64,000 nt of DNA from Lachnospiraceae bacterium (lineage in GTDB: Bacteria; Bacillota; Clostridia; Lachnospirales; Lachnospiraceae): NCBI GenBank assembly GCA_017622845.1, contig JAGAQJ010000058.1, forward strand, positions 37,652 to 101,651, given 5' to 3'. Below the pieces are notes generated by a model that did no database searches, was not told the DNA's origin, and worked only from the letters and a program-made list of their open reading frames with translations. The position numbers and the translations under genes were made by a program. Below are positions 10,535 through 20,025 of the stretch, one piece after another (within the stretch, counting starts at the first letter, position 1; each line of letters opens with the position of its first letter).

Positions 10535-11917
10535 TTACTTGATGATAGGGAGAAGGACTGTGAAAGTAGAACCGCCGCCCAAATGATCACTTACGGTAAT
10601 TTTGCCATGATGTGCGGTGACAATACCTTGTGCAATCGACAATCCAAGTCCAAAGTGGCTTTTATCGCTTCGTGCTTTTTCACTTCGATAAAAGCGATTA
10701 AAAATCTTGTCTTTTTCTTCGTCACAAATTCCGACACCAGTGTCAGAAATCTTAATCTCATAATAGTTTTTAAAGAAATCTAAGGCTATCAGAATGTGAC
10801 CGTTTGCAGGTGTATAGCTGATGGCATTGTGCAGCAGTATTGTGACTACCTGTGTGATACGTTCGCTGTCACAGACACATGCCGGAGGCTGTTCCGCAGG
10901 AAGCTTGAGGTTCAGTGCAATGTGCTTTTGCCTTGCCATGCTTTCAAACCTTTCATACACATTGAGAAGCAGTGTATCAAGCTCAGTTTCCCGGCAGTCC
11001 ATATCAAAATGATTGGCATCAAGGCTTGATAAGGTAAGCATATCACCCAATAAGCGTGAGGTGCGGAGCGCTTCGCTTTGAATCATGGACAAATCATGAG
11101 ATATTGCCGGAACTATGGAAACGTCCTTTTCAAGGCTTTCTTTTGGATTCAATTCCTTTTGGACGTTCAGTTTTTCACAGGCATTTTCGGAACAGGACAG
11201 AATGACTGCAAGCGGTGTGCGAAGCTCATGCGAGGCTGCTGCCACGAATTGATTCTGCCTGAGCCGGTTTTCCTCTATCGGCTGTAAAAGCTTCCCGGTA
11301 AATATCCATGCAAAAATCCATAGAGCCGCCAGAGCCGCCAGAATGATGCCAAGAAATAAGAGCCGCTGATGCCATATCTGCTGCCGCACTCCGGCAAGAG
11401 GCGCAATCAGAAGCATTTCAAGAGCGGATTGATTTTTTGCGACGGATATTACAAAGCAATAGTAATCCTGAGCAATTGCAGGGGTATCAGATGTTCGCGG
11501 CATCATGAAGGAAGTATAGCTGCTTTGGTAGGATATGGTACGTTTGTCCTGAGAGGCAGCATTATTTTCATCAGTATTTTCGCTTTGTTTCCTGTAATAT
11601 GCCCATGCATTGTCAACAATTTGTTCTCTGACAGTATTTTGAAGCCTGCTGTTAAATAAAAATTCTACACCGTTGTCCGACAAGGATATATAATAGGCAT
11701 CATTTGCTTCAAGCTGTGAAAGCCAGGTATGACTGATTACGTTTTGCTGCTCAAGCATTGCGGCGATACTGTATATGTCGCTTTGATAGGAATAGTTTTT
11801 ATTATCCAGTATGTTTTTTTCTGATATGTACAGATAGGCAAGCGTCATGATAATCAGGATTAAGGTTGTGATGCCTCCGCTAAGCAGTGTCAGCCGGAGC
11901 CGGACTTTTTGAATCAT
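10535..11917 (-). CDS. membrane sensor histidine kinase of a two-component system
   Basis: A 460-residue HisKA-type kinase. A first membrane helix lies at about residues 10-31, an extracellular domain at 32-183, a second helix at 184-206, the H-box ASHELRTPL with His230, then HATPase_c with the N box (LLHNAISYT) and G boxes DTGVGI and GLGLSIA. The ATG at 11917 overlaps the stop of the upstream response-regulator gene as ATGA, which fixes the start and implies translational coupling. It presumably senses a ligand related to the divergent ABC importer operon, since boxes upstream of both units are identical. Confidence 0.93.
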   Translation of the reverse strand: MIQKVRLRLTLLSGGITTLILIIMTLAYLYISEKNILDNKNYSYQSDIYSIAAMLEQQNVISHTWLSQLEANDAYYISLSDNGVEFLFNSRLQNTVREQIVDNAWAYYRKQSENTDENNAASQDKRTISYQSSYTSFMMPRTSDTPAIAQDYYCFVISVAKNQSALEMLLIAPLAGVRQQIWHQRLLFLGIILAALAALWIFAWIFTGKLLQPIEENRLRQNQFVAAASHELRTPLAVILSCSENACEKLNVQKELNPKESLEKDVSIVPAISHDLSMIQSEALRTSRLLGDMLTLSSLDANHFDMDCRETELDTLLLNVYERFESMARQKHIALNLKLPAEQPPACVCDSERITQVVTILLHNAISYTPANGHILIALDFFKNYYEIKISDTGVGICDEEKDKIFNRFYRSEKARSDKSHFGLGLSIAQGIVTAHHGKITVSDHLGGGSTFTVLLPIIK

Positions 11918-12600
11918 GGCAGTTTCTCCCTTTCGAGAAGGCAATATCCGATACCGCGAACCGTCTTTAGTTCCAGACAGCTTCCGACAGCTTTCAGCCT
12001 GCGGCGGATAAAATAGATGTAGTTGTCCAGATTTCCTTCCTCAATATCGCTGTCGGGTCCCCAGACTTTAAGAAGGAGTGTATTCCGGGATAATGTCTGA
12101 CCGGAGTTTCTGATAAAAATTTCAAGCATAGTCCCTTCGCGGTTAGAACAGGTGCAGCTTCCCTTTGGACCTGTAAGTGTGCTGTCAGCTTCATTGTAGC
12201 TGATATCTGCAAGCCGCAGCATGTTTGTCATATTGAGGATAGGAGAGCGTCTGGTGACACATTGGATTCTTGCAAACAGTTCATCGAACGCAAAAGGTTT
12301 GACCAGATAATCGTCAGCTCCAAGATTCAGTCCGTCTACTTTGTCCTTCAAGGTTCCGAGGGCTGTGATCAATATGATCGGAACATAGATATTGTTTTTT
12401 CGAAGCTCAGACAAAACCATGGAGCCCTCCATAAGAGGAAGCATTCTGTCAAGCAATATGACATCATGAATATTCTGACTTGCGTAGTAAAGAGCTTCTT
12501 CACCGTCAAAACAGGAGTCCACGTCAAAACCCTTGGATTGTAAGCGTTCAGTCAGTGTATGGTTCAGATTTTTGTCATCTTCTGCAATTAAGATACGCAT
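11914..12600 (-). CDS. OmpR/PhoB-family response regulator
   Basis: A 228-residue regulator with an N-terminal receiver (phosphoacceptor Asp51 in VILLDRMLP, conserved Lys in VKPF) and a C-terminal winged helix ending YFIRRRLKA...GIGYCL. The start is the ATG at 12600, preceded by AAAGGA at 8-9 bases, which gives the normal MRILIAEDD opening. It forms a two-gene operon with the kinase. The divergent intergenic region has paired TTAGAGA heptamers with 11-bp periodicity next to both -10 boxes, the usual geometry of OmpR-family operators, so it probably regulates itself and the transporter operon. Confidence 0.93.
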   Translation of the reverse strand: MRILIAEDDKNLNHTLTERLQSKGFDVDSCFDGEEALYYASQNIHDVILLDRMLPLMEGSMVLSELRKNNIYVPIILITALGTLKDKVDGLNLGADDYLVKPFAFDELFARIQCVTRRSPILNMTNMLRLADISYNEADSTLTGPKGSCTCSNREGTMLEIFIRNSGQTLSRNTLLLKVWGPDSDIEEGNLDNYIYFIRRRLKAVGSCLELKTVRGIGYCLLEREKLP

Positions 12601-12666
12601 ATTGCGATTCCTTTCGTCCAAAATTTTGTGTTATTGAAGTATATGGAATAACACTTTAACTAAGAA

Positions 12667-12672
12667 ATTATA
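12667..12672 (-). promoter_or_regulatory. -10 box (TATAAT) of the two-component operon
   Basis: TATAAT on the minus strand, exactly 9 bases downstream of a TTAGAGA heptamer (12682-12688) and without an evident -35 box, as expected for a regulator-dependent promoter. Confidence 0.7.
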
Positions 12673-12681
12673 GCATACATT

Positions 12682-12735
12682 TCTCTAAAAAGTCTCTAAT
12701 ATCTGATTTCCAAAATTTTAGAGAAAACTTAGAGA
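12682..12735. promoter_or_regulatory. mirror-image response-regulator operator
   Basis: Four perfect heptamers: TCTCTAA at 12682-12688 and 12693-12699, and TTAGAGA at 12718-12724 and 12729-12735. Each pair is a direct repeat with an 11-bp period; the two pairs face opposite ways, so each divergent promoter has its own tandem pair ending 9 bases before its -10 box. Confidence 0.75.
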
Positions 12736-12744
12736 ATGATTTGT

Positions 12745-12750
12745 TATAGT
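12745..12750 (+). promoter_or_regulatory. -10 box (TATAGT) of the ABC importer operon
   Basis: TATAGT, 9 bases after the TTAGAGA box at 12729-12735. The predicted transcript starts at about 12757, at a 9-bp inverted repeat (CAGCGTCAG at 12756-12764 with 12792-12800) that could form a 5'-end hairpin. Confidence 0.65.
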
Positions 12751-12858
12751 AAAGTCAGCGTCAGCTTACAGGAGCACAAATCGGATTGTTTCTGACGCTG
12801 CCCTCAGCTTACAAGGGCAATCACGAGTAAGAAACAAAAACGGAAGGAGCTTGAAGCA

Positions 12859-15201
12859 ATGAAAGGTAAGACGGGAAAGGGAATTTTGTCCGCAATTTTG
12901 GCAGTGTCCCTTTGCATGGGATTGACAGGGTGTGGGACGTTTGGCTCACAAAGTGCAGAACAAGATGGGAAACAGGCAGTATCAGATGAAGCGATAGATA
13001 TCACGTCAAATAAAGGTGATGCTTCGCAGAATACAGGCATGGGTAGATATGTGGAAAAGACGGTTTATGAGATGGATAGTGTTTTCACGATGGCGAACCG
13101 TGTATTAAATGATGGGAGCTTCTTGTTTACAGACTGTACGTCAGGTAAAAAGTACGTTTCGAATGATAGCGGTGATACATGGGAGGCTGTGGAAGATGAA
13201 AAATATGCCCAATTTGTAGATGAACATTACGCAGCAGAATCAGCTGTTTCTGCGGATGGCGTGATTGCGATGATTAATATGGAAGCAAAGGAGAATGCGG
13301 GGAACGGCGAGAAACAGGATTATGATTTCGTCTGCAATGTATTTTATGGCGATGGTGCGTCAAAAAGAATTTCAATTGAACTGCCTTCTGACAGTATGGG
13401 GTGCAGAAATTTGACATTTGATGAGAATGGCAGACTGTACGTCAGCGCATACAGCTGCGATACCATATACGAGGTCGACATCAATGAGGGCACGAGTAAG
13501 AAACTTGTAGATATTCCGGGTGGAGTTGAAATTATGGAATGCCGCAGCAATATACTGATGTGTGCTGCCTATGAGAAGACATATCTCTATGATTTGGAGA
13601 ATCAAAGTTTTATAGAAGATGAAGTACTCAATGATTTTATCCATGAGAATTATAATGGTGTAGAATGGTATGGCAGCGGCTACAGTGCATTTGTGTTTCT
13701 TGGAGAGGAAAATGTTATCTATGTGGCAGGAGAAAAAGGGCTGCACCGTCATGCAATTGGCGGAAGCACAATGGAACAGGTGATTGACGGTGGTTTGTCA
13801 TCCTTTGGCGACCCATCGCATAGCATTATGACAGCGATGATGAATGACAGACAGGAGTTTATCGCAGTATTCAGTGACGGTAAATTTGTGAAATTCACAT
13901 ATGATGAAAATGTTTCGGCAGTGCCGGAGGGAAAACTTACCGTGTACGGATTAAAGGAGGATGCTGTAGTCAGACAGGCGATTTCAGCATATCAGACAGC
14001 ATATCCTGATATGTATATCGAGTACGAAACAGGCATGGAGGAAGGCGGTGTGACCAGAGAGGATGCGCTCAAAAAGTTAAATACGGAGCTGATGAGCGGC
14101 AATGGCCCTGACGTGCTGCTGCTTGATGATATGAGCATTGATACCTATGTTTCAAAAGGGGTATTGATGGATTTGTCAGAGCTTGTCAACACAATTGACG
14201 CTGAGGAAGGCTTGTTTATGAACCTGATTGAGTCTGTTAATCAGGGAACAGGAATATATGCTGTTCCAGCGCAATTCAGAATCCCTTTTATTGCAGGTCA
14301 TGAGGATACAATACAGGGCGTTGAAGATTATCAGACATTTGCAGATATGGTTGAGAAGGTTAGGGCAGATTATCCTGATACAAACCTGTTGATGACATGC
14401 TCTGCTTCAGGCATTATGAAAAGAATGCTGACGGTCTGTGAACCTTCCTGGAAAGATACGGATGGTCAGGTTGATAAGATCAGAATAAAAGAATTTTTAC
14501 AGGAAACCAAGAGGATTTATGATGCACAGATGAATGGTACTCCCAAGAATGAGATAGAAAATTATCTGGAGAATGCGGCAGAATCGGACATTGAGGACAG
14601 CATATATCTTACACAAATGAATAATTTTGATTATTATATAGGCATTACCCCCTTCTTATGGGGAGAACCGATGGGATATGTCAGCTTTCTGGATATGATA
14701 TCGATGGCGAAAAACAGCGGTTTTGAAGACACAATGTATAGAGTAATGGATGGACAGAGTTCCAATGTCTATCACCCGTCAACAATTGCCGGAATCAATG
14801 CAGCGACCAATAGTTCCGAGCAGGCAAAGCAGTTTATAGAAATATTACTTTCGCCAGAGGTTCAAGATGTTCCCTCTATCGGATTTCCGATGAACAAAAA
14901 ATCTTTTGTAAATCAGTTTGAATATGAAGAAAGTAAACTCGGAGAAGATGGTGGCTTATACTATGTGGGAGGTTCATCTCAGGACGGTTTGGAGGTCAAT
15001 TACACCGTTTATCCTGCTTCCGCGGATGAGGTCAGTGCGCTTGAAAAAGTGATTGCGTCACTAACTACCCCGTATATACAGGACAGCGTTCTTGAAACAG
15101 CAGTGATTGCTGAGGGTGAAAAATATTTTCAAGGAAAGCAGGACCTTGACACAGCAGTCAGCAGAATTATGGAAAGCGCAGCGCTTTATACAATGGAGTA
15201 A
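12859..15201 (+). CDS. ABC extracellular solute-binding lipoprotein with N-terminal propeller-like domain
   Basis: A 780-residue lipoprotein. The signal peptide ends in lipobox LTGC (Cys about residue 26). Residues of roughly 60-340 show repeated beta-strand segments of a sensor or beta-propeller type (SVFTMANRVLNDGSFLF, NLTFDENGRLYVSAYS). From about 355 onward a family 1 solute-binding domain follows (LTVYGLKEDAVVRQAISAY, GPDVLLLDD). Ordinary family 1 binding proteins have 400-500 residues, so the N-terminal 300 are extra. AAGGAG lies 9 bases before the ATG. Two permeases follow but no ATPase, so a shared MsmX-type ATPase is likely. The ligand is probably a carbohydrate, by family only. Confidence 0.88.
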   Translation: MKGKTGKGILSAILAVSLCMGLTGCGTFGSQSAEQDGKQAVSDEAIDITSNKGDASQNTGMGRYVEKTVYEMDSVFTMANRVLNDGSFLFTDCTSGKKYVSNDSGDTWEAVEDEKYAQFVDEHYAAESAVSADGVIAMINMEAKENAGNGEKQDYDFVCNVFYGDGASKRISIELPSDSMGCRNLTFDENGRLYVSAYSCDTIYEVDINEGTSKKLVDIPGGVEIMECRSNILMCAAYEKTYLYDLENQSFIEDEVLNDFIHENYNGVEWYGSGYSAFVFLGEENVIYVAGEKGLHRHAIGGSTMEQVIDGGLSSFGDPSHSIMTAMMNDRQEFIAVFSDGKFVKFTYDENVSAVPEGKLTVYGLKEDAVVRQAISAYQTAYPDMYIEYETGMEEGGVTREDALKKLNTELMSGNGPDVLLLDDMSIDTYVSKGVLMDLSELVNTIDAEEGLFMNLIESVNQGTGIYAVPAQFRIPFIAGHEDTIQGVEDYQTFADMVEKVRADYPDTNLLMTCSASGIMKRMLTVCEPSWKDTDGQVDKIRIKEFLQETKRIYDAQMNGTPKNEIENYLENAAESDIEDSIYLTQMNNFDYYIGITPFLWGEPMGYVSFLDMISMAKNSGFEDTMYRVMDGQSSNVYHPSTIAGINAATNSSEQAKQFIEILLSPEVQDVPSIGFPMNKKSFVNQFEYEESKLGEDGGLYYVGGSSQDGLEVNYTVYPASADEVSALEKVIASLTTPYIQDSVLETAVIAEGEKYFQGKQDLDTAVSRIMESAALYTME

Positions 15202-15206
15202 CTAAA

Positions 15207-15992
15207 ATGAAATACAGACATGCGCGCAGGGAGCGCAGGGCATTTGTGTGCTTCCTGCTTCCAAGTATGATTGGCGTTTCCGCATTTGTCCTGATTCCCT
15301 TCTTAGATGTTATAAAGCGTTCCTTTATGACAGTGATGTCAGGAGAGTTTGCGGCGCTTGATAATTATAAAAGAGTGATTGGCAATCAGGCGTTTCAGAT
15401 TGCTGTAAAAAATACGCTGCATTTTACGGGGGTGGCAATACCGTTACTGGTGCTTATCGGACTTTCTGCTGCTCTGGTGCTTAGCAAAATAAATGACACA
15501 CGTGTCATAAAGAGTCTGTATCTTTTTCCCATGGCGATGCCGACGGCTACTGTGGTGATTGTCTGGCGAATGTTCTTTTATCAGCAGAATTTTGAAAGTC
15601 TGGTTGCAAGTTATCTGTGGAAAAATATTGGTTATATGTTAGTGCTGTGGCTTGCAGGAATCTCAGCAATACCCAATGAACTTGTGGAGGCAGCACAGGT
15701 GGACGGGGCAGGATGGTTTCGATGTTTCTTCTATGTGAAGCTTCCTTGCCTGAGGGGGAGCCTGTATACAATCGTGATATTGTCATTTCTGAATTCCTTC
15801 AAGGTATACCGTGAAGCATATCTGGTGGCAGGCTCCTATCCGGCACAGGATATCTACCTGCTGCAGCATATCTTCAATAACTGGTATGTCAATCTGGAGC
15901 TTGATAAGCTGGCAGCGGCTACCGTGACTGCAGGGGTGTTTTTGTTTGCATTTATCATATTGCTGAATGTGTTTTGGAATAAAGAAAGCTGA
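15207..15992 (+). CDS. ABC sugar-type permease (MalF-like)
   Basis: A 261-residue inner-membrane permease with about six helices and the ATPase-contact EAA loop NELVEAAQVDGAGWF near residues 153-167. It starts 5 bases after the binding-protein stop codon, so it is cotranscribed. The segment between it and the second permease is occupied by a MITE-like element, an unusual break in an otherwise tight operon. Confidence 0.9.
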   Translation: MKYRHARRERRAFVCFLLPSMIGVSAFVLIPFLDVIKRSFMTVMSGEFAALDNYKRVIGNQAFQIAVKNTLHFTGVAIPLLVLIGLSAALVLSKINDTRVIKSLYLFPMAMPTATVVIVWRMFFYQQNFESLVASYLWKNIGYMLVLWLAGISAIPNELVEAAQVDGAGWFRCFFYVKLPCLRGSLYTIVILSFLNSFKVYREAYLVAGSYPAQDIYLLQHIFNNWYVNLELDKLAAATVTAGVFLFAFIILLNVFWNKES

Positions 15993-16072
15993 CCGCTGTA
16001 ATACACAGATGACAAAAATAACTTCCAAACACGAGATATGATACGAGGAGAAAAATATTGGTTACAGGAAAT

Positions 16073-16426
16073 GTTACAGTTCAGCCTTTTATGCATTCTT
16101 ATCCGGACGAAAACGGCAGATAGTATCCTTCCGACTGCCATGGATTCCGAATGGGAATTTCCTAATACGATGAGGAAGGCTTTCAAATGAGCACGGAGCC
16201 GGCTCGAGTCGGCATCCATGCCTCCATCTCGCCTAAATTTGCTTCCGTACAAATATACTCCTGCTTTGCATATCATCGTATAAGGAAATATCACCATTCT
16301 CCACCGAGGCATTCTGCCGGATACTATCTGCCATTTTCTGTTCAGTGAAACCATAAAATGGAACAGTTGTCAGTACACAGAAGGGCGGCAGTCCTGATTA
16401 AAATATTCATAAGGCTGAACTGTTAC
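16073..16426. mobile_element. MITE-like element A (354 bp, full length)
   Basis: The ends are GTTACAGTTCAGCC and GGCTGAACTGTTAC (one mismatch as inverted repeats), flanked by a perfect 8-bp direct repeat CAGGAAAT at 16065-16072 and 16427-16434. It matches element B (27078-27447) in inverted orientation over nearly the whole length. No transposase frame is present. It sits between two permease genes of one operon. GTAA-type ends with 8-bp duplications are typical of the IS66 family, so a non-autonomous IS66 derivative is a reasonable guess. Confidence 0.85.
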
Positions 16427-16471
16427 CAGGAAATTCGAGGTCTGAACTGTAATGGATATCGTGAGGTGTGT

Positions 16472-17335
16472 ATGTTCAGGAAAGTGATAAATACTATAAT
16501 AGAATCTATCATCAAGATAATTTTCATAGCCGCAGGCATTATGATATGCGCTCCGGTTCTTTTGGTCATAACAGGCTCCGTGATGGGAGACAGTGACCTC
16601 TATGAGTGTCTTGCTCCTGTATTTCTGGACGGGCAAGGCTTTGCGACATGGAAACTGATACCGCAGTATCCAACCTTAGAGCATTACAAAAAGCTGTTAT
16701 TTCAATCGCCCCGGTTTTTTGTATTGTTTTGGAACAGCATCAAAATAGTCGGCTTGATATTGATAGGGCAATTGCTGATTGGCGTGCCTGCCGCATGGGC
16801 ATTTGCAGTCTACAATGTAAAAGGGAAAAACATACTTTTTACATTGTATATCGTACTGATGCTTTTGCCCTTTCAGGTGACCATGCTCTCGTCATACATT
16901 GTTCTGGACAGGCTGTCATTGCTTAATACACATTGGGCAGTCATTTTGCCAGCCGTCTTCAACACTTTTCCAATCTTTGTAATTTATGGAGGTTTTCGTG
17001 CTATACCCAGGCCGCTTCTGGAAGCAGCAAGGATTGACGGTGCAGGTGAGTTGTATTTATTTGTCAGGCTCGGGCTGACACTTGGAAAAGGCAGTATCAT
17101 GTCAGCGATTGTTCTTGGTTTTCTCGAATACTGGAATATGATTGAACAGCCGATTGCTTTTTTGGAGGACAAGTCATTATGGCCTTTATCGCTCTATCTT
17201 CCTCAAATCAGTTGGACTCAGGCAGGATTTGCATTTAGTGCTTCTGTGATTATGCTGATACCGGCAGTGTTTGTGTTTATTATGGGGCAGGATTATTTAG
17301 AACAGGGAATCATTTATTCGGGACTGAAAATGTAG
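16472..17335 (+). CDS. ABC sugar-type permease (MalG-like)
   Basis: A 287-residue permease, the partner of the upstream MalF-like protein. The EAA loop is RPLLEAARIDGAGELYLF. The start is the ATG at 16472 with GAGG 5 bases upstream; the frame is open further upstream, but that part lies inside MITE-like element A and encodes no family sequence. Membrane helices alternate through the protein, and the C-terminal DYLEQGIIYSGLKM fits the family. The 480-base gap from the first permease is caused by the element, and the operon is otherwise contiguous. Confidence 0.9.
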   Translation: MFRKVINTIIESIIKIIFIAAGIMICAPVLLVITGSVMGDSDLYECLAPVFLDGQGFATWKLIPQYPTLEHYKKLLFQSPRFFVLFWNSIKIVGLILIGQLLIGVPAAWAFAVYNVKGKNILFTLYIVLMLLPFQVTMLSSYIVLDRLSLLNTHWAVILPAVFNTFPIFVIYGGFRAIPRPLLEAARIDGAGELYLFVRLGLTLGKGSIMSAIVLGFLEYWNMIEQPIAFLEDKSLWPLSLYLPQISWTQAGFAFSASVIMLIPAVFVFIMGQDYLEQGIIYSGLKM

Positions 17336-17399
17336 ATTCTGCAGGCATGAAATCTGAAAAGTACACGTGAATCGAACGGTTCGGAAAGGCATGGTTGTA

Positions 17400-19101
17400 A
17401 TGATGGAACAGGATGAAGAAAAGATATTGAGCCGTAAGCGGCTTGAAAAGTGGATAAAGATATTTTTAATATTCTTAGCGTTTATGTGGCTGTGTACAAT
17501 CATATCAAGAAGCATCTATGTGTCGAAGCTGCCGCAGGTAAAGACAGAGCTGCCGCTAAAGAGATACATAGAGCACATTGTGGAGGCTGACGGAATTGTG
17601 ACGGCGGGCGGAGAAGTAGCCGTAAACACACTGTCAGGACTGCGCATTGAAAAGATTAATGTACAGCAGGGTGATGCGGTTAAGTCAGGAGATGTGCTCT
17701 TTACAATTGATACAGAAGATTTGAAAAGTATCATAGCAGCAAAAGAGACAGAACTTACCAAACTGCAGCTCCAACTGGCAGATGCGGAATTTAATCAAAT
17801 ATTAGGCGCGCAGAAGAAGGAAATTGCACTTCTGTGGGCACAGGAGGATTATGATAATGCAGACAAGGAGACAGCGTTGGCGGTACAGAGAGCGCAGGAG
17901 GCGCTCAGTAAGGCACAAGGTGAGCTGCAGAAGCATCTGGGTTTCGGCACCGCATACCTCTGATGAAGACAGGGAGAACGCATGGAATCGGTACAACACA
18001 TGGAAGAAGCAAGGCTATGAATTGCAGGATACAATAGCGGAAAAGGAAAGAACGATAGCAGAGCTTGCGGAAAAATTAAGCAGTGCGATAAATCATAAAA
18101 CAGGAGATGCCGTTGAAGACAGCAGTATGGAAAGCAGCAATACAGAGAACAACGGTGATGAGGAAAATACTGACACAAATCCGGATATTAGAGAGCAGCT
18201 TGAAAAGGAAAAGGAGGAATTAGTACAACTGCAGTCAAAGTTGGCAGAGCTTGAGAGAAATCCGGTAGCACAGCCGAACTATTCCGCAGAGGAAATGGCG
18301 TATGATGCATGGCAGTCGGAAAAAGCTTCCCTTGAGGAGGCAGTACAGTCAGCAAGGCAGGCGCTTGAGGACGCCAGACTTGCAAGAGAGAATACCCTCA
18401 GACAAAAGATGCGCGATATTGCATCTGCCCAAACCTTGAGCAATGCAGATTCCGGCATATCAGTATATGAACTTGAAATTGCAGATTTGCAGACTGAACT
18501 TGCAAAATTATATGATATTCTACAGAAAAAAGGCAGTATTACAGCAGAAAATGATGGATTTATTTCAAATATACAGATTGATGTTGGCGGAAGAACGACA
18601 GACAGCGCATCAATGCTTTTGGCGGATTTATCGACTGGAGGACAGTTTAAGTTCAGTATCAGCAAAGAACAGGCGAAGTATATTCATCTGAATGATAGTA
18701 TTGAATTAAAACTGAACGGAGAGCAAAGTATGGAAGTAACAGCAGACTATTTCACGGAAAATAATACCGGCGGATATGATATGATATGCAGACTTCTGGC
18801 AGAAACCGGACAGCCGGGAATCAGCGGAAGGATACGTAAGTCCGTGCAGGGTGAGCAGCATAGCCTGACTGTTCCTGTGGAAGCAGTGTATGAGGAGTCA
18901 GGAACGTTCTATATCTACATATTAAATGAAAAAGCAGGAATCCTTGGAAATGAGTACTATGCGGAAAAGATAAAGGTGCAGATAGCAGACAGAAACGACA
19001 AATATGCGGCGGTAAGTGAAGGAACCATCAGTGAAGATACACAGGTAATTATTTTTTCATCAGAGGAATTAAAGCAAGGTGCAAATATTAAAATTGAATA
19101 A
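17400..19101 (+). pseudogene. HlyD-type membrane fusion protein, interrupted by a +1 frameshift
   Basis: Two overlapping frames encode one protein of about 566 residues. The first (17400-17963) has an N-terminal membrane anchor, a biotinyl-lipoyl-like hairpin half (GLRIEKINVQQGDAVKSGDV) and the start of a coiled coil, then stops after HLGFGTAYL. The second continues from about 17945 in the +1 frame with APHTSDEDREN, a long coiled coil, the other half of the lipoyl domain (ITAENDGFISNIQIDVGG) and a beta-barrel domain to 19101. The break is not in a homopolymer. Either the gene is broken or a base is miscalled. Such adaptors normally pair with an ABC exporter, and none is adjacent. Confidence 0.75.
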
Positions 19102-19191
19102 AAAAATTGCCATTTTCAGACAAAAACATTATACTGGTAATCGTAATATGATAATACAGTAAGAACAGTTCGGTAATGGAGATGAAAGCAA

Positions 19192-20025
19192 ATGAAAATA
19201 ATAGAGAAACAAACCTTTGATGAGGAACGCGCCCTCTATGGCAGCAAAGAAGTAATTTTAAATGATTGCTCCTTTGACGGTCCGGCGGATGGTGAGAGCG
19301 CTGTAAAAGAAGCATCAGATATTCAGGCAAACAGATGTTTCTTTAACTTGCGTTACCCGTTTTGGCATGTACATGGACTTGGCATTCAGGATTCTGAGAT
19401 GACCGGGCAGTGCCGTGCTGCACTTTGGTATTCGGATAACATCAAAATAACAGGGACAAAGCTGCATGGCATCAAGGCGCTTAGGGAGTGCAGCAACGTC
19501 GTGATTCAGAATTGCGATATCGCATCGCCGGAGTTTGGCTGGTCTGTCAATAATATAAAAATGGACGATTCGACAGCCGTTAGCGAATATTTTATGATGC
19601 GTTCCGAGAACCTTATGTTTCAGAATGTCACCTTCAAGGGAAAGTACTCGTTTCAGTATATCAAAAATGCATTATTTGAAAACTGCAATTTCGACACCAA
19701 AGATGCTTTCTGGCATGGTAAAGATGTCACTGTGAGAAACAGTATCGTTAAGGGAGAATACCTTGCATGGTACTCAGACGGGCTTACGTTGGAAAATTGC
19801 AAGATTATCGGTACACAGCCATTATGCTACTGCAAAAATCTGAGACTAATCAACTGTGAAATGATTGACACCGATCTTTGCTTTGAAAAATCAGAAGTCG
19901 AGGCAAATATCACAACGCCTGTGGTGAGTATCAAGAATCCGCTGTCCGGTACAATCACAGTTCCCTCAGTCGGGGAAATTATCATGGATGATGCAAATGC
20001 AAAGGGTGAGATTAAATTCAGGTAA
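19192..20025 (+). CDS. DUF3737 family right-handed beta-helix protein
   Basis: A 277-residue protein of the DUF3737 family. It consists of regularly spaced short strands with turn motifs such as FWHVHGLGIQDS, LWYSDNIKIT, LRECSNVVIQNC and AFWHGKDVTVRNS, the pattern of a parallel beta-helix. There is no signal peptide. AGATGAAAGCAA precedes the ATG, a poor ribosome binding site. It lies 90 bases after the membrane fusion gene and ends at a strong terminator, so it may be the last gene of that operon. The biochemical function of the family is unknown. Confidence 0.85.
   Translation: MKIIEKQTFDEERALYGSKEVILNDCSFDGPADGESAVKEASDIQANRCFFNLRYPFWHVHGLGIQDSEMTGQCRAALWYSDNIKITGTKLHGIKALRECSNVVIQNCDIASPEFGWSVNNIKMDDSTAVSEYFMMRSENLMFQNVTFKGKYSFQYIKNALFENCNFDTKDAFWHGKDVTVRNSIVKGEYLAWYSDGLTLENCKIIGTQPLCYCKNLRLINCEMIDTDLCFEKSEVEANITTPVVSIKNPLSGTITVPSVGEIIMDDANAKGEIKFR

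Follow-up and report, generated by a model that had tools for sequence, protein, structure and literature searches.

The pho box of the regulator PhoB takes the place of the -35 element and lies about 10 nt from the -10 element. In BceRS-BceAB-type modules, the two-component genes lie beside a transporter operon that is controlled by the response regulator, while sugar importers of the CUT1 class can share an ATPase of the MsmX/UgpC type. To our knowledge, few two-component regulons have been mapped in gut Lachnospiraceae. The available text of PMC3798270 describes both the ArcA and the PhoB boxes as direct repeats with 11-bp spacing, and ArcA sites with three boxes. For CiaR of the streptococci, the available part of PMC3091779 gives the motif TTTAAG-N5-TTTAAG, sought at a distance of 10 nt from the -10 element, and reports an effect of the regulator on lytic processes. 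Here, we compare these systems with a locus found in a stretch of Lachnospiraceae DNA of 64,000 nt, which we call the window.

The minus strand of the window carries a gene for a 228-residue response regulator of the OmpR/PhoB family (RR; 11914-12600), which combines a receiver domain with a winged helix: the Pfam domains Response_reg and Trans_reg_C score 88.3 and 56.3 bits against cut-offs of 30.2 and 26.2. The gene for a sensor histidine kinase (HK; 10535-11923, minus strand) overlaps the stop codon of the RR gene with its ATG, and its product passes the Pfam cut-offs for HisKA and HATPase_c. Enterobacterial PhoB and its pho box share with this locus the regulator family and the 11-bp direct repeats, but the box sequence and the genes are different, and the RR scores only 158.4 bits with the NCBIfam PhoB model TIGR02154, whose cut-off is 296.2. 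It also falls below the NCBIfam VanR models (108.3 vs. 480 bits and 98.9 vs. 350 bits).

On the side of the RR gene, the sequence TTAGAGA-N4-TTAGAGA occurs as an exact match on the minus strand at 12682-12699 (boxes at 12682-12688 and 12693-12699), and a 9-nt gap (12673-12681) separates it from the -10 element TATAAT (12667-12672, minus strand) of the RR-HK promoter. A second exact match lies on the plus strand at 12718-12735 (boxes at 12718-12724 and 12729-12735), where a 9-nt gap (12736-12744) leads to TATAGT (12745-12750, plus strand), the -10 element of the operon that begins with a solute-binding lipoprotein gene (SBP). Both pairs have an 11-bp period; they point away from each other and are 18 bp apart. 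The preliminary description of this DNA had claimed just such an arrangement of four perfect boxes in two oppositely oriented pairs, each ending 9 bases before a -10 element, and the sequence bears it out exactly. Its further claim that the promoters lack a -35 box agrees with a consensus promoter scan of 12600-12900, which found no -35/-10 pair. A feature that it had not mentioned is that both -10 elements, as read from the sequence, are of the extended type (TGn), with TG at 12674-12675 and 12742-12743, respectively. The leader of the SBP operon also contains a 9-bp inverted repeat (CAGCGTCAG/CTGACGCTG, at 12756-12764 and 12792-12800). A structured leader was considered, but shuffled sequences fold as well as the 115 nt that start at 12756 (z -1.13).

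The plus-strand operon opens with the gene for the 780-residue SBP lipoprotein (12859-15201), which matches Pfam SBP_bac_8 and SBP_bac_1 above cut-off. Its C-terminal part is a maltose-binding-type domain, a profile of 70 sequences matching CbpC and maltose-binding proteins; its N-terminal region appears, less securely, to resemble designed or PQQ-type beta-propellers. Genes for a MalF-type permease (15207-15992, plus strand) and a MalG-type permease (16472-17335, plus strand; the start at 16472 is probable, the ORF opening at 16358) follow, both matching Pfam BPD_transp_1 above cut-off and 73-75% identical to permeases in the operons of two relatives. The stretch of about 480 bp that separates these two genes holds a TwoAYGGAY RNA (RF01731; 16142-16306, minus strand; 79.8 bits vs. 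a cut-off of 43); in the relatives that were read, the MalF and MalG genes overlap or are at most about 165 bp apart. An HlyD/RND-adaptor-like gene comes next on the plus strand in two pieces, the first (17367-17963) with 60-65% identity to the N-terminal part of the genes of three relatives and the second (17824-19101), in a different frame, matching the same three genes from about 17944. The gene is thus broken in this assembly, with a frame split near 17944-17957, and forms one reading frame in the relatives read; the split may be either real or an assembly error. Scored separately, the pieces reach 38.0 and 56.9 bits, under the NCBIfam RND_mfp cut-off of 94.9, and the Pfam lipoyl/HlyD matches of an unbroken adaptor from a relative all lie below cut-off. 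The operon is followed by a DUF3737 gene (19192-20025), an arrangement also seen in several relatives.

The SBP and the two MalF/MalG-type permeases are shared with CUT1 importers, and one UgpC-type ATPase above cut-off, whose link to this operon is putative, is encoded elsewhere in the genome. The operon differs from those of CUT1 importers in the large N-terminal region of the SBP, the HlyD-like adaptor gene and the OmpR-type control. With BceRS-BceAB, the locus shares the layout of two-component genes adjoining a transporter operon, but the transporter genes encode the SBP, MalF, MalG and the HlyD-like adaptor, and none of the eight proteins scanned across 10535-20025 has a Pfam match to an ABC ATPase or FtsX-type domain. 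The term importer, as first applied to the operon at 12859, is uncertain, since the operon proteins scanned include no ATPase and an adaptor gene comes after the permease genes.

One account of the boxes is that they arose by chance or were simply inherited and have no regulatory function, and the frequency of the motif bears on it in both directions. The single heptamer is not rare, with six copies of TTAGAGA in the window against 9.3 expected, although four of the six fall inside 54 bp. The exact pair with N4 spacing, on the other hand, appeared once among 300 Markov copies of the window, compared to twice in the real window, and these two are the only perfect pairs in the 3.6-Mb genome. When up to two mismatches are allowed, the genome contains 23 pairs, fewer than the 77 found with a reversed-pattern control, so this genome shows no enrichment of the loose motif when it is taken without its promoter context. 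A broad regulon in this genome can be set aside: there are three sites with at most one mismatch and one with three, against one for the reversed control. The third site, with one mismatch, lies upstream of an unlinked lipoprotein gene of the same family as the lipoproteins that the operator precedes in relatives. The genome-wide search for TTAGAGA-N4-TTAGAGA that had been suggested as a route to the regulon yielded this one additional target, but no perfect pair beyond the two already known.

Comparison of the intergenic region in relatives had been put forward as a means of refuting the operator, and it speaks for the boxes. Orthologues of the RR (E<=1e-70) are present in 28 of 38 genomes of the genus, the window's own included, at 29 loci; the other 10 genomes have no RR match at this cut-off. 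The operator lies upstream of all 29 RR loci, with zero, one or two mismatches at 19, 8 and 2 of them, whereas only 0.7% of Markov resamples of the RR upstream stretches come within two mismatches. The SBP gene was found in 28 of the 38 genomes by whole-genome search, and its upstream regions hold the operator with at most one mismatch in 31 of 31 rows (26 of 26 distinct regions), the rows being fetched loci whose matches start by SBP residue 60. On both sides, the boxes show no variation at positions 1-6 and 12-16 (2.0 bits) while the information content of the flank from -11 to -5 is 0.0-0.6 bits, in sites that were chosen as best matches, a choice that favours the boxes. At 23 of 27 distinct RR-side sites, 9 nt separate the pair from the -10 element (10 nt in three and none scored in one), as they do at 25 of 26 distinct SBP-side sites (scored at 7 in the remaining one). 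The TG dinucleotide precedes the -10 element at all 26 distinct SBP sites, but at only 12 of the 27 RR sites. A scan of a species-level genome collection with SBP peptide patterns returned no relative. In several relatives, the SBP gene is present in tandem copies, and at L010, L013, L120, L126 and L127 the operator stands in front of every copy. At some sites, three boxes with an 11-bp period are found rather than two (L049, L055 and L057), which resembles the ArcA arrangement as it is described in the available text.

The same comparison does not support the mirror-image symmetry that the preliminary description had seen in the two pairs. A plus-strand site is present within 900 nt at 14 of the 29 RR loci in the genus, and the separation between the two sites ranges from 5 to 767 bp, which led us to reject a single mirror-image operator of fixed geometry. 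No SBP match was found at 15 of the 29 loci in the 1.5 kb of sequence retrieved next to the RR gene, contig ends included. In genome G007, the RR and SBP genes are on separate contigs, and no RR operator occurs in the 19 kb read around the SBP gene. The two pairs are thus independent of each other, and each belongs with the promoter next to it; they do not form one mirror-image operator.

The presence of the site in a genome follows the presence of the RR. With one mismatch allowed and a -10 element included, the genus contains 137 sites, compared to 32 for the reversed control. The 28 RR-positive genomes account for 132 of these sites (25 for the control), and every one of them has the site; the 10 RR-negative genomes have five sites against seven for the control, found in two genomes (G012 and G030). 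This association is significant (Fisher p 9e-7). The RR of G030 may have been missed, since its assembly is fragmented and the SBP gene is present there. We also sampled the family with 299 genomes from 298 genera, using a cut-off of E<=1e-65 for the RR and scoring up to nine candidates per genome. The exact site occurs in 15 of the 299 genomes (17 sites; reversed control, 0) and the RR in 32, and the two are found together in 13 (Fisher p 1.7e-12). RR loci fetched from the family number 29, at 46-64% identity (35 match rows in all, the window's own included). A site with at most two mismatches lies within 350 nt at 25 of these 29 loci on either strand, and at 18 on the strand of the RR gene. 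Among the four loci without such a site (L272, L275, L282 and L293), L275 has a perfect site about 390 nt upstream.

These data decide against a pattern without function. That account could draw on the lack of enrichment of the heptamer in the window and of the loose pair in the genome, but the boxes stay fixed while their flanks diverge, and in the promoters of unrelated genes (RR, SBP, lipoprotein and amidase) the site recurs with an unchanged spacing to the -10 element. Given its conservation in orthologues, the divergence of the flanks, the rarity of the pair in Markov sequence and its co-occurrence with the RR, we consider the chance explanation to be ruled out for practical purposes.

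A different question is whether another OmpR/PhoB-type regulator, alone or together with the RR, reads these sites, so that the RR would be one of several. Many paralogues would be available for this role: first-look candidates of the OmpR type number 22-128 per genome in the genus and 5-186 in the family. Moreover, G119 and G181 carry the operator without an RR match at E<=1e-65. Against this, the presence and absence of the site track the RR, and the site stands before the RR gene itself at all 29 loci of the genus. We therefore regard the involvement of another regulator as improbable. The recognition helix of the RR is also nearly fixed, following the pattern G-N-L-D-N-Y-I-[YH]-F-x-R-R-R in 58 RRs from the genus and family loci; seven positions are invariant, four are conserved at 94-98%, one is Y or H, and one is variable. 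Taken together, the footprinting, the co-occurrence, the near-fixed recognition helix and the operator-only scan described below strongly support the adjacent OmpR/PhoB-type RR as the protein predicted to act at both promoters.

The operator-only scan used the operator and an extended -10 element, without any protein data, on a collection that represents each of 84,980 species by a single genome; the collection includes the window's genus, and the scan is thus not fully independent of the genus results. It retrieved at least 118 stretches with 128 sites, 125 of which have a downstream ORF of at least 50 residues starting within 500 nt. When these ORFs, at least 125 in number, were assigned by BLASTP (E<=1e-4) against a few reference proteins, 54 proved to be SBP, 36 lipoprotein, 16 RR-like and 9 MalF permease genes, one was a histidine kinase gene, one was a D-Ala-D-Ala-ligase-like gene, and 8 received no assignment. 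Six families hence take in 117 of the 125 ORFs downstream of the sites listed. Among the 80 stretches listed, most are from Lachnospiraceae or from genera such as Blautia, and a few are from other bacteria, among them Negativibacillus massiliensis, Oscillospiraceae and Clostridium sp.; Kineothrix alysoides and Blautia schinkii are among the named records. In genome G029, a D-Ala-D-Ala-ligase-like gene lies downstream of a perfect site (L110, position 1305; L234).

Two kinds of genes found with the site point to the cell envelope. The lipoproteins have a C-terminal domain in common, which is matched (E<1e-5) in 40 of 40 proteins, four of them from family-level loci, by a profile built from 14 lipoproteins that the operator had located in the genus and in the window's own genome; the lipoprotein of the latter matches DUF5666 below cut-off. 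Additional sites in the genus lie upstream of a gene whose product has a Pfam Amidase_2 domain and an N-terminal hydrophobic segment, and in genome G016 this N-acetylmuramoyl-L-alanine amidase scores 81.4 bits against a gathering score of 26. The amidase gene is present in 21 of the 38 genomes, 20 of them among the 28 with the RR; G030 is the only one of the 10 RR-negative genomes to have it, while eight RR-positive genomes lack it, and no amidase of this kind was detected in the window's own genome. At most three mismatches separate the operator from the best site at all 20 of the 21 amidase loci with enough upstream sequence. Two of these loci, at three mismatches, are weak, as 6.8% of 300-nt resamples reach three. 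By eye, a hexamer resembling a -10 element lies 9 nt past the pair in 19 of the 20. The regulon is thus larger than the two operons of the window. Neither the site nor the regulon was found in the titles and abstract openings of the literature that we surveyed.

We consider it very probable that a dimer of the RR binds at both pairs and activates its own RR-HK operon as well as the SBP operon, with positive feedback and a small envelope regulon. According to this model, each TTAGAGA pair would be the binding site for one dimer of the RR encoded at 11914-12600. The dimer would bind head to tail, cover the usual place of the -35 element and, placed 9 nt before the extended -10 element, help RNA polymerase to start transcription leftwards into the RR-HK operon and rightwards into the lipoprotein, permease and adaptor operon. 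Since one predicted target of the RR is its own operon, the circuit would include positive feedback. The same site would control a small cell-envelope regulon of lipoprotein genes and, in many relatives, the peptidoglycan amidase; it is from these targets that the envelope role is drawn.

The direction of control is drawn from the layout of the sites, which are 11-bp direct repeats that lie upstream of the -10 element without overlapping it, at promoters without a -35 element. This is the layout of OmpR/PhoB-type activator sites, and the RR is accordingly taken to act as an activator at both promoters and so to raise its own production. The RR could instead bind and repress, covering the -35 region and blocking polymerase until a signal arrives; the sites do occupy the -35 place, where repressors also sit. 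The absence of a -35 element and the 9-nt distance to the -10 element at 23 of 27 RR sites and 25 of 26 SBP sites argue for activation, and, as far as the available text describes them, CiaR-activated promoters are built in the same way, their distance to the -10 element being 10 nt. Repression is hence an unlikely reading. The earlier claim that the RR activates both operons is well founded in its first half, the link between site and regulator (29 of 29 loci; Fisher p 9e-7 and 1.7e-12), while activation itself, like the self-amplification proposed with it, is read from the position of the sites. Binding by the RR, activation rather than repression, feedback and the envelope role are all inferred; the mechanism would be of a known kind, ordinary OmpR/PhoB-type activation with autoregulation.

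CiaR, as far as it is described in the available text, likewise has a direct repeat with an 11-bp period and is the closest case that we have seen. It differs from the present system in the box, which is TTAGAGA here, in the recognition helix (NLDNYIYFIRRRL here, VVEVYVSKVRKKL in CiaR) and in its targets. Two-component control of cell-wall metabolism is also a property of WalKR and CroRS, to judge from the parts of the literature available on them, but these systems act on other genes, and the system described here is dispensable, because 10 of the 38 genomes of the genus have no RR match at the cut-off.

A further reading, which we put forward tentatively as a serious possibility that falls somewhat short of probable, is that Lachnospiraceae and some other Clostridia possess an envelope-surveillance module, in which a two-component system that has an operator code to itself drives a membrane complex, a small lipoprotein family and a peptidoglycan amidase. 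The complex, on the same tentative footing, would consist of the propeller-bearing SBP lipoprotein, the MalFG permeases and the HlyD-like adaptor, and it may sense or transport cell-wall fragments rather than import sugar.

Two 7-mers and their constant spacing to an extended -10 element suffice here as a search pattern to retrieve a coherent regulon from a large collection of genomes, which links a response regulator to its targets ahead of experiments. The results also tie a MalFG-type transporter with an unusual SBP and an adaptor to a peptidoglycan amidase. Because the same operator precedes the amidase gene, they suggest that genes with the appearance of a sugar importer may in these bacteria serve the cell envelope.
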